DNA of 64,000 nt from Leptothrix sp. (in: b-proteobacteria) (GTDB lineage Bacteria > Pseudomonadota > Gammaproteobacteria > Burkholderiales > Burkholderiaceae_C). The position numbers and the translations under genes were made by a program. Positions within the stretch are counted from its first letter, which is position 1; each line of letters starts with the position of its first letter. Positions 18,141-40,240 of the stretch are shown one piece after another. Under the pieces are notes generated by a model. It searched no databases, was not told the origin of the DNA, and worked only from the letters and a program-made list of their open reading frames with translations. The stretch covers positions 1-64,000 of the forward strand of contig PNKD01000001.1 of NCBI GenBank assembly GCA_013822265.1. The letters are read 5' to 3'.

Positions 18141-18326
18141 AAGAGACGCTGTGAGGTTCTTGACGGTCGCTCCCTGCCACCTCAGTCACCCGACCTTGAA
18201 GGTTGAGTGTCGGCATTGTGAGGAACAGCGGTCACTGGGCGGCGTCACTTCGCGGGCAGCCTGCGGCCCGTTGCCGACGTTGCTTCGCGCCGGGTCTCGT
18301 GCTTCGCGCATGCCTGCCTTCGGGCA

Positions 18327-18349
18327 GGCCGAGGGTGTTGGGTGGGCTG
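18327..18349 (+). repeat. Copy 1 of a 23-bp dispersed repeat GGCCGAGGGTGTTGGGTGGGCTG
   Basis: Identical 23-mer recurs at 39593-39615. Confidence 0.85.
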
Positions 18350-18398
18350 ATCCTGCGCAGATGCCTGCGCGCCGCGGCGCGCCCCCCGGCGCGCCGCC

Positions 18399-37294: not shown

Positions 37295-38404
37295 ATGACC
37301 CAAGAGGTTGAACTGCCGCGCTGGATGGACGTGGCGCTGCTGCCGCTGGTCAACCTGGGCATTGCGCTGCTGGTGGCCGGTGCCGTGGTCGCCCTCGTCG
37401 GCTTCCAGCCCGGCCAGGTGCTGGCGCTGCTGCTCGAGGGTGCGTTCGGCTCGCAGGCCGGCATCAGCTACACGCTGTACTACGCCACCACCTTCGTCTT
37501 CACCGGGTTGGCCGTGGCGGTGGCCTTCCACGGCGGGCTGTTCAACATCGGCGGCGAGGGCCAGGCCATCCTGGGCGGGCTGGGCGCCGGTCTCGCGGCG
37601 CTGGGCCTGGCCGACACGCTGCCGGCCTGGCTGGTGCTGCCGCTGGTGGTGCTGGGCGCGGCGCTGCTGGGCATGGTGTGGGCGGCCATCCCCGGCGCGC
37701 TGCAGGCCTGGCGCGGCAGCCACACCGTCATCACCACCATCATGTTCAACTTCATCGCCTCGGCGCTGCTGGGCTGGCTGCTGGTGGGCCCGCTCAAGGA
37801 GGCCGGCAACATGACACCCGAGAGCCGCGCCTTCGGCGACGCGGCGCACGTGCCGGGGCTGCACGAGGCGCTGGCCTGGCTGGGCGTCGAGTGGCCGCGC
37901 ACGCCGCTCAACCTGAGCCTGCTGCTGGCCCTGGCCGCCGCGGTGCTGGTGTGGCTGGCGCTGTGGAAGACACGCGGCGGCTACGCGCTGCGCGCGGTGG
38001 GCTTCGCGCCCGACGCGGCGGTGTACGGCGGCATCCGGCCCAAGGGGTTGATCGTGGCGTCTATGGCCGCCTCGGGCGCACTGGCCGGGCTGGTGGGCGT
38101 GAACGAGATTGCCGGCGTGCACGGCCGCCTGCTGCCCGACTTCGTCGCCGGCGCCGGCTTCGCGGGCATCGCCGTCAGCCTGATCGGGCGCAACCACCCG
38201 CTGGGCATCGTCGGTGCCGCGGTGCTGTTCGGCGCGCTGTACCAGGGCGGCTCGGAGCTGGCGTTCGAGATCAACGGCTTCAGCCGCGACATGGTGTTCA
38301 TGCTGCAGGGGCTGATCGTGCTGTTCGCCGGCGCCATGGCGCAGGTGGCGGCGCCGGCGCTGTTCAAGGCCTGGCGCGCGTTCGGGGGCGGCCGCCATGG
38401 ATGA
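37295..38404 (+). CDS. ABC transporter permease (BMP/nucleoside type)
   Basis: GGLFNIGGEGQAILGGLGAG; TVITTIMFNFIASALL. Confidence 0.92.
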   Translation: MTQEVELPRWMDVALLPLVNLGIALLVAGAVVALVGFQPGQVLALLLEGAFGSQAGISYTLYYATTFVFTGLAVAVAFHGGLFNIGGEGQAILGGLGAGLAALGLADTLPAWLVLPLVVLGAALLGMVWAAIPGALQAWRGSHTVITTIMFNFIASALLGWLLVGPLKEAGNMTPESRAFGDAAHVPGLHEALAWLGVEWPRTPLNLSLLLALAAAVLVWLALWKTRGGYALRAVGFAPDAAVYGGIRPKGLIVASMAASGALAGLVGVNEIAGVHGRLLPDFVAGAGFAGIAVSLIGRNHPLGIVGAAVLFGALYQGGSELAFEINGFSRDMVFMLQGLIVLFAGAMAQVAAPALFKAWRAFGGGRHG

Positions 38405-39365
38405 GGTCTTCATCGGCACGCTGGTGGCCAGCACGCTGCGCGTCTCGGTGCCGCTGATCCTGTGCGCGCTGGCCGGTGTGCTGAGCGAGCGCTCGGGCGT
38501 CATCGACCTCGGCCTCGAAGGCAAGATGCTGCTCACGGCCTTCGCCACCGCGGCGGTGGGCGTGGCCAGCGGCTCGCTGGCGCTGGCGCTGTTGGCGGCG
38601 CTGGGCGTGGGCGTGGCGCTGTCGATGCTGCACGGCTACGCCTGCGTCAGCCACGGCGGCGACCAGGTCGTGCTGGGCGTGGCCATCACGATGATCGCCG
38701 GCGGCCTTTCGGTGGTGCTGGGCATCGCCTGGTTCGCTCAGGGCGGGCAGACGCCGCCGGTGCCCGAGGCCGTGCGACTGGGCCGCTGGTTCGTCGGCGC
38801 CGGCGAGGGGGTGGCGCAGCTGCCGCTGGTGGGCAAGGCCTTGTCGCTGGCGCTGTTCGGCCACAACCTGATGGTCTACGGCGCGCTGGCCGCGGTGGCC
38901 GGCGTGTGGTGGCTGCTGTACCGCACGCGCTTCGGGCTGCGCCTGCGCGCCACCGGCGAGAACCCGACCATGGTCGACGCCGCCGGCGTCGGCGTGAAGG
39001 CGCTGCGCTACCAGGCGCTGGCGCTCAACGGCGTGCTCAGTGCGCTGGCCGGCGCCTACCTCGTGGTCGCGCAGAACCCCAGCTTCATCCCCAACATGAC
39101 GGCCGGCCGCGGTTTCATGGCGCTGGCGGCGATGATCTTCGGCAAGTGGCACCCGGTGGGCGCGCTGTGGGCCTGCCTGCTGTTCGGCTTTCTCGATGCC
39201 GTCTCGATCCGCATGCAGGGCGCCGAGCTGCCCCTCGTCGGCGCCGTGCCGGTGCAGTTCATCCAGGCCCTGCCCTACGTGCTGACCGTGGTGCTGCTGG
39301 CCGGTTTCATAGGCCGCAGCGTGGCGCCGGCGGCGCTGGGCCGGCCCTATGTCAAGGAGCGCTGA
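38397..39365 (+). CDS. ABC transporter permease (BMP/nucleoside type)
   Basis: LSERSGVIDLGLEGKMLLTAFATAAVG; overlaps the previous permease. Confidence 0.92.
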   Translation: MDEVFIGTLVASTLRVSVPLILCALAGVLSERSGVIDLGLEGKMLLTAFATAAVGVASGSLALALLAALGVGVALSMLHGYACVSHGGDQVVLGVAITMIAGGLSVVLGIAWFAQGGQTPPVPEAVRLGRWFVGAGEGVAQLPLVGKALSLALFGHNLMVYGALAAVAGVWWLLYRTRFGLRLRATGENPTMVDAAGVGVKALRYQALALNGVLSALAGAYLVVAQNPSFIPNMTAGRGFMALAAMIFGKWHPVGALWACLLFGFLDAVSIRMQGAELPLVGAVPVQFIQALPYVLTVVLLAGFIGRSVAPAALGRPYVKER

Positions 39366-39465
39366 GGTGGTGAGGTTCTGCGCTGGCGGCCCGGTGCGGT
39401 CGTTCGTTGCTTCGGCTGGATCGGCGTGCATGCCTCTGCGCAGGATCAGGCCGCCGGGGTGCTCT

Positions 39466-39677
39466 GCTGCGTTCATGTCCCCCGGCCTGGGCTTGGCCCA
39501 GGCCTCCTCCTTTACTTCACTCCGCAGAGCACGCCACCGTCCTGATCCGGCGCCGGCAGAGGCGCGTTTGCAGGGGCGCCACGATGGGTGGTGGCCGAGG
39601 GTGTTGGGTGGGCTGCGGAGTGAAGTAAAGGAGGAGACGGCGACCGTCAGGTCGACGTCGGGGGACATGAACGCAGC
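39466..39677. repeat. Nested inverted-repeat element (outer 19-bp arms, inner 24-bp arms, side hairpins)
   Basis: GCTGCGTTCATGTCCCCCG (39466-39484)/CGGGGGACATGAACGCAGC (39659-39677); CTCCTCCTTTACTTCACTCCGCAG (39504-39527)/CTGCGGAGTGAAGTAAAGGAGGAG (39613-39636). Confidence 0.9.
39593..39615 (+). repeat. Copy 2 of the 23-bp dispersed repeat GGCCGAGGGTGTTGGGTGGGCTG
   Basis: Identical to 18327-18349. Confidence 0.85.
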
Positions 39678-39829
39678 CGCCCACCCAACGGCCTTGGCCT
39701 GTCGTGATGCACGAACGCGTGAGCCGCGGACGATGTCGTCATCGACCGTGCGCAACGGGCCGAAACTCGACATGACGCAATCGGGCATCGAGCGCCGCAT
39801 TTCGCGCCCCGCATGCCGGAGCAAATGAG

Positions 39830-40240
39830 ATGAGCATGTTGGATCACCAGTCGGCCCTCATCGCCGCCGCCCGCGCCGCGCGCGCCATGGCGCATGCCCC
39901 CTACTCGCGTTTTGCCGTCGGCGCCGCAGTGCTCGACGAGCAGGGCCGCATTCACGCCGGCTGCAACGTCGAGAATGCGGCCTACCCGCAGGGTTGGTGC
40001 GCAGAAGCCTCGGCGCTGTCGGCGATGGTGATGGCCGGCGGCCGTCGCGCCGTGGCGGTGGCGGTGTGCGCGGTGGCGCCGCAACCCGTCACGCCCTGCG
40101 GCGGCTGCCGCCAGAAGCTGCGCGAGTTCGCCGCCGACGACTGCCCCGTGTGGGCCGCCGACGAAAGCGGCCTGCGTGCCGCCTACACCCTGGGCGCGCT
40201 GCTGCCGCACAGCTTCGGCCCCGATCACCTGCCCGAATGA
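39830..40240 (+). CDS. cdd: Cytidine deaminase
   Basis: PYSRFAVGAAVLDEQGRIHAGCNVENAAYPQGWCAEASAL; PCGGCRQKLREF. Confidence 0.95.
   Translation: MSMLDHQSALIAAARAARAMAHAPYSRFAVGAAVLDEQGRIHAGCNVENAAYPQGWCAEASALSAMVMAGGRRAVAVAVCAVAPQPVTPCGGCRQKLREFAADDCPVWAADESGLRAAYTLGALLPHSFGPDHLPE

Follow-up and report, generated by a model that had tools for sequence, protein, structure and literature searches.

The closest described systems are the REP/BIME/REPIN repeats and their RAYT (TnpA-REP) transposase. These palindromes occupy extragenic sites in high copy number as inverted doublets and as singles, fold as strand-defined hairpins and are seldom placed between divergent genes; individual REPs are 20–40 bp long, with a GTAG/GGAG-type tetranucleotide at the foot and sequence-conserved, species-specific hairpins. 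Integron attC sites are imperfect palindromes with unpaired conserved bases, a variable stem sequence and strand-specific folding. MITEs are short and non-autonomous and are bounded by terminal inverted repeats. TIRtron/TIRYT repeats are dimeric and self-complementary and bear a G-rich GGGGWSAS motif (Di Nocera, 2013; PMC3733652); they form subclass 2.1 in PMC6006769, and Y1 loci carrying repeats of their own are described in the same literature (PMC3733652; PMC6006769).

The element described here lies between a nucleoside-type ABC transporter permease gene and the cytidine deaminase gene cdd, and shares with the REP/BIME/REPIN repeats each of the features of site, copy number, palindromic build, pairing, strand and gene context named above. 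The sequence-only reading had called it REP-like, which is apt for its behaviour, with a palindromic unit that occurs outside genes in inverted doublets; the sequence tag and the transposase that define REPs are both missing, and for this reason membership of REP/REPIN is not claimed. Instead of a short tagged unit with a sequence-conserved hairpin, it has a unit of ~85–120 nt with covarying stems and an invariant loop common to beta- and gammaproteobacteria, and no linkage to RAYT, in that no cognate gene flanked by the repeat was found. TIRtron/TIRYT repeats are alike in their dimeric self-complementary build, and GGGGWSAS is close to the GGGGGACA[TC] of the element, but its units do not flank Y1 genes. 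Like MITEs, it is short and non-autonomous and has terminal inverted repeats, the last in the genus of the window only; unlike them, it has a conserved interior fold and ends that vary from genus to genus, and it lacks an autonomous partner; a target duplication is not clear. The imperfect palindrome, variable stem and strand-specific folding are shared with attC sites, but the conserved columns of the unit contain no GTTRRRY/RYYYAAC boxes and the units as a rule lie outside cassette arrays. No Rfam family matched above its gathering threshold, the sub-threshold hairpin matches being mostly to microRNA models. Searches by sequence and by topic of the literature, subscription papers and preprints excepted, found no description of the element and returned chance sequence matches only; it is apparently undescribed and akin to REP/REPIN by behaviour.

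The stretch of DNA that was analysed (the window, 64 kb) belongs to a draft genome of 4.38 Mb in 251 contigs. The permease gene and cdd are spaced by 464 bp in it, and the coordinates of the features found there are collected in Table 1. Two nested pairs of inverted arms had been reported from the letters, at 39466–39484/39659–39677 (19 bp) and 39504–39527/39613–39636 (24 bp). Both were found to be perfect in a letter-by-letter check; elsewhere in the 64-kb window no 19-mer has an exact inverted counterpart at a distance of up to 400 bp. The hairpin GGCCTGGGC-TTG-GCCCAGGCC in the left spacer (39484–39504) and GACGGCGACCGTC in the right spacer (39636–39648) are likewise present as described, and the complementarity of the left flank (39432) with the apical region (39541) proved to be the outer stem of the left unit. 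The arms are thus real, but the anatomy is that of two divergent self-folding units and not of one nested palindrome, and the extent originally given (39466–39677) is the core alone of a longer element. A single unit is present as two inverted copies, A on the minus and B on the plus strand, and the nested arms are formed by the conserved strands of their internal loops; the 5' ends of the units face each other and the units point outwards. Each unit consists of a long outer stem, the sequence of which is free to change, a near-invariant internal loop (GAAGTAAAGGAGGAG/CGGGGGACATGAGCG) and a variable apical hairpin. In the decayed relative elsewhere in the window, 18327–18349 is identical to 39593–39615, and 18341–18374 matches 39422–39455 in reverse.

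Table 1. Coordinates of the element, its parts and related features. Positions are those of the window unless a locus is named. R1 is the covariance model, built from 77 rows that include units A and B of the window themselves; fold z scores are against dinucleotide shuffles.
Feature	Position	Strand	Evidence or remark
Whole element, 382 bp	~39384–39765	.	Bounded by imperfect 23-bp terminal inverted repeats; fold z -12.1 (DNA)
Left terminal inverted repeat TGGCGGCCCGGTGCGGTCGTTCG	39384–39406	+	3 mismatches to TTTCGGCCCGTTGCGGTCGTTCG; chance expectation 0.00
Right terminal inverted repeat TTTCGGCCCGTTGCGCACGGTCG	39743–39765	-	Terminal-repeat search
Structured unit A, folded strand minus	39435–39553	-	R1 106 bits, E 5e-23; fold z -7.1 (RNA)
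Structured unit B, folded strand plus	39587–39708	+	R1 94 bits, E 4e-20; fold z -4.6 (RNA)
Unit A internal loop, 5' strand, CTGCGGAGTGAAGTAAAGGAGGAG on minus	39504–39527	-	Alignment and letter check
Unit A internal loop, 3' strand, CGGGGGACATGAACGCAGC on minus	39466–39484	-	Alignment and letter check
Unit A variable apical hairpin	39484–39504	-	Letter check; apical hairpin pairs (helix 5) covary
Unit B internal loop, 5' strand	39613–39636	+	Alignment and letter check
Unit B variable apical hairpin	39636–39659	+	Fold
Unit B internal loop, 3' strand	39659–39677	+	Alignment and letter check
Centre between unit 5' ends	39554–39586	.	No sequence conserved across elements, no promoter-like site
DNA missing at orthologous junction of ~20 congeners	39366–39829	.	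Insertion with additional flank of up to ~80 bp
Nucleoside-type ABC transporter permease (BPD_transp_2), flanking gene	38397–39365	+	
Cytidine deaminase (cdd), flanking gene	39830–40240	+	
Decayed relative	18263–18385	.	Left terminal repeat and outer stem flanks kept, palindromic middle deleted
Y1_Tnp-like gene next to dGTPase-like gene	L271 1435–2124; L272 1159–1827; L273 1411–2070		

The fold was evaluated on an alignment of 77 diverse units. The RNAalifold consensus comprised a long outer stem, a small inner helix and the apical hairpin, with double changes in 31 of its 32 pairs; with three internal-loop pairs added, double-sided changes were seen in 32 of 35. Paired cells amounted to 95.1%, compared with 62% in shuffles and 36–40% when the alignment was slid, and double-change cells numbered 802 against 220 in shuffles; the rows are related by descent, and this relatedness is removed by the slide control and not by the shuffle control. 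The stem varies freely and the loop, which includes AAAGGAGGAG and CGGGGGACA, is near invariant. Loop variants co-occur (AAGT with ACATGA, AGGT with ACACGA, AAAT with ACATTC), and a joint exchange of A46/G76 for G/A links the two purine-rich loop strands. This very strong compensatory change bears out the earlier suggestion of a structured RNA or single-stranded DNA element. G-T pairs exceeded A-C about sevenfold in the outer stem (153:21) and by 22:3 in the inner hairpin. The excess in the outer stem indicates that selection acts on the fold of the GAAGTAAAGGAGGAG-bearing strand, and compensatory change together with G-U/G-T on one strand alone characterizes a strand-specific folded element. 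The excess fits RNA and single-stranded DNA alike and is not proof of the latter. A variant unit in G437 (L311 517–805) keeps the CGGAGTGAA/TGAACGCAG foot and has TAAGAATTTGG in place of the G-rich loop and apical hairpin.

Among the unit pairs, 79 of 80 were divergent, with a core-to-core distance of mostly 100–108 bp, and the centre, down to ~10 nt in the stretch examined, had no common sequence. Solo units, dispersed in Pseudoxanthomonas, and decayed copies make it less clear where the mobile unit begins and ends. The outer ends differ by genus (TTTCGGCCCGTTGCGG in the genus of the window, TTCAGGGCGCG in Variovorax) and the units are the same; the conserved part is the unit and not the end.

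Copies were sought by BLAST, as the sequence-only reading had advised. A second copy was found in the same genome (contig C197, 82% identity over query 13–359), and 19 of 61 relatives contained the element. In one congener (G027) the copies are 84–96% identical over ~305–340 bp and have unrelated flanks, i.e. the element is dispersed within genomes. The permease gene and cdd overlap or sit 0 to ~40 bp apart in ~20 congeners, giving the orthologous junctions free of the element that had been looked for; the junctions of G018 and G003 hold a copy from a different subfamily. Complete Variovorax megaplasmids have elements in the tauA–tauB, mgtC–mgtA and ghrA–GNAT intervals. The ghrA–GNAT interval, filled elsewhere in Variovorax, measures 5 bp in Variovorax strain SRS16, and two further strains (CP138516 and CP070344) keep short remnants there. 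CP138516 was rejected as an empty site, being a deletion across the palindrome at CCCC microhomology. From the filled and empty sites and the CCCC-bounded deletion it follows that the element arrives by insertion and leaves by palindrome-driven deletion. The proposal of a non-autonomous palindromic mobile repeat is upheld by the second copy, the many copies in congeners and the empty orthologous site, and a single copy without conserved structure is excluded by the further copies and the conserved fold. In a search for target-site duplications, TGAG at 39363–39366 and 39826–39829 is a possible, unproven 4-bp duplication, and none was consistent among 11 G027 copies. The repeat shows how operons such as those for nucleoside uptake and taurine uptake become split by inserted hairpins.

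With the covariance model, units were detected in 36 of the 60 genomes listed under the genus, and the matches per genome ranged from 0 to at least 60; 60 candidates were scored per genome and the counts are lower bounds. In the family, units occurred in 183 of 401 genomes and 80 of 141 genera; ~46% of the sampled family genomes thus carry the repeat, yet it has no Rfam model. A phylum-wide sample gave units in 11 of 399 genomes, confined to this family and one other, probably Xanthomonadaceae. Among the matches listed were Hydrogenophaga, Rhodoferax, Variovorax, Aquabacterium, Methylibium, Sulfurisoma, Luteimonas, Pseudoxanthomonas and Lysobacter. By gene-pair type, 50 of 72 elements lay between codirectional, 17 between convergent and five between divergent genes, as called with a purpose-written, heuristic GC-periodicity gene caller and with a few elements counted in both orientations. 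The 40 neighbour genes from 40 loci were ordinary, most having Pfam matches at E 1e-8, and included no transposase, integrase or reverse transcriptase. Spread by phage or plasmid was rejected: there were no phage or viral-contig matches to the element, and the plasmid matches were three Variovorax megaplasmids alone. In L037, L057 and L062 (Hydrogenophaga/Rhodoferax) the unit adjoins a LigB-type dioxygenase gene, and some of these copies may be inherited at one site.

On balance and with moderate confidence, we favour a non-autonomous mobile palindromic repeat, a very large REPIN-like element moved in trans via its strand-specific folded units. A fixed-strand fold, inverted doublets, extragenic dispersal and unconserved ends are as expected of a REPIN-like single-stranded DNA repeat with a trans-acting enzyme. 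Such a protein would recognize the single-stranded DNA form of the folded unit, which the lagging-strand template, for instance, could provide, and would copy or move the doublet into extragenic sites. Recognition would be through the invariant internal loop; the ends are discounted as the signal because they differ between genera. Two inverted, divergent copies of the unit, each folding on one strand, would offer a correctly folded unit on either strand and would also allow the element to fold, over its entire length, into a single long hairpin. Within an operon, transcript processing or stability is probably affected by the hairpins. Against this reading, no enzyme that moves the element was found, several element-rich genomes have no RAYT/Y1 gene at the cut-off, and neither target duplication nor the limits of the mobile unit are clear. 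Somewhat more tentatively, the element may represent an undescribed class of mobile repeat, carried by much of one betaproteobacterial family and also present in another (probably Xanthomonadaceae), with the strand-specific fold as the mobility signal and an enzyme distinct from RAYT and from every transposase found so far; for such a class, the paired A/G swap in the G-rich loop hints at tertiary or quadruplex-like contacts. The covariation is strong enough for the recogniser to be looked for directly.

The main rival is a role at the RNA level, which we regard as rather unlikely. The folded molecule would then be RNA, a selected UTR structure acting as an exonuclease barrier or as a protein-bound mRNA element and spread somehow, and read-through from either side would always give one correctly oriented unit. 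The strand-specific G-U excess, the RNA-like internal loop with its non-canonical covariation and the frequent position between codirectional genes (e.g. tauA–tauB, mgtC–mgtA and permease–cdd) all suit this explanation, but the centre has no conserved promoter-like site, there is no Rfam relative, presence is patchy and tied to no gene family, and copies also lie between convergent genes.

Less probable again is a conventional MITE, in which a DDE transposase would act on the terminal inverted repeats and the structured units would be cargo. In its own genome the 23-bp terminal repeat is element-specific, occurring at the two copies and in one match with two mismatches, which was placed by eye in apparent coding sequence. 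Congeners also have elements with the same ends and other structured cargo: in L306 (471–1085), L307 (154–668), L313 (478–948), L314 (480–873) and L315 (471–981) the cargo bounded by these terminal repeats is a different one, large and palindromic. That of L306, L307 and L315 includes a structured stretch with conserved CCCTGCGATGCTCGG...GAACTCGCTGCG...GCGAGTCAG, alone or paired with the unit, and no Rfam match was obtained for this alternative cargo of congeners. However, other genera share the units and not the ends, target duplication is inconsistent and the covariation would be left unexplained. Neither was an autonomous element with the same terminal repeats present in 60 same-genus genomes, the paired ends all being <650 bp apart. 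A candidate autonomous element from a 2.5-kb unit pair in R. gelatinosus (L119/L178) was discarded, as it consists of two separate singles among small hypothetical genes. R. gelatinosus DSM 1709 has, at L119 4100–7400, single units with small antitoxin-like and hypothetical genes around them and attC-resembling sequences adjacent.

It is very improbable that the element is a true REP/REPIN or TIRYT-associated repeat, mobilized by a Y1 (HUH) tyrosine transposase; such an origin is largely refuted. The inverted doublets, solo units and extragenic sites agree with it, as does the resemblance of the 3' loop strand GGGGGACA[TC] to GGGGWSAS of TIRYT repeats (PMC3733652; PMC6006769), but the GTAG tag is absent and a unit was near only one of 46 PF01797 loci, a set that includes weak sub-cut-off matches and some re-fetched (overlapping) loci; that one was itself a weak match with the HUH motif apparently lost. 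A covariance search around Y1_Tnp loci gave no intact Y1 gene flanked by the unit, and at several Y1 loci of these genomes the repeats are GGGGTCAGA instead. At the curated cut-off, no RAYT/Y1 gene is present in the element-rich genomes G018, G024, G012, G430, G434, G446 and G445. The only Y1-like gene close to a unit, that of G018 beside a dGTPase-like gene, was rejected, being a weak PF01797 match with HUH apparently lost; weak matches of this sort are present in element-free genomes too. In three congeners a Y1_Tnp-like gene of 219–229 aa, the HUH motif of which is apparently lost, adjoins a dGTPase-like gene (Table 1); it looks like a domesticated RAYT relative.

Contigs often terminate at such palindromes, as an assembly artefact would have it, but this explanation and that of a plain transcription terminator are already refuted by the presence of the element in complete records (the Variovorax megaplasmids), by covariation across genera and by the lack of a U-tract terminator, neither a promoter nor a terminator having been found in the element. 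The contig breaks in the draft genomes of this group are accounted for by the repeat.
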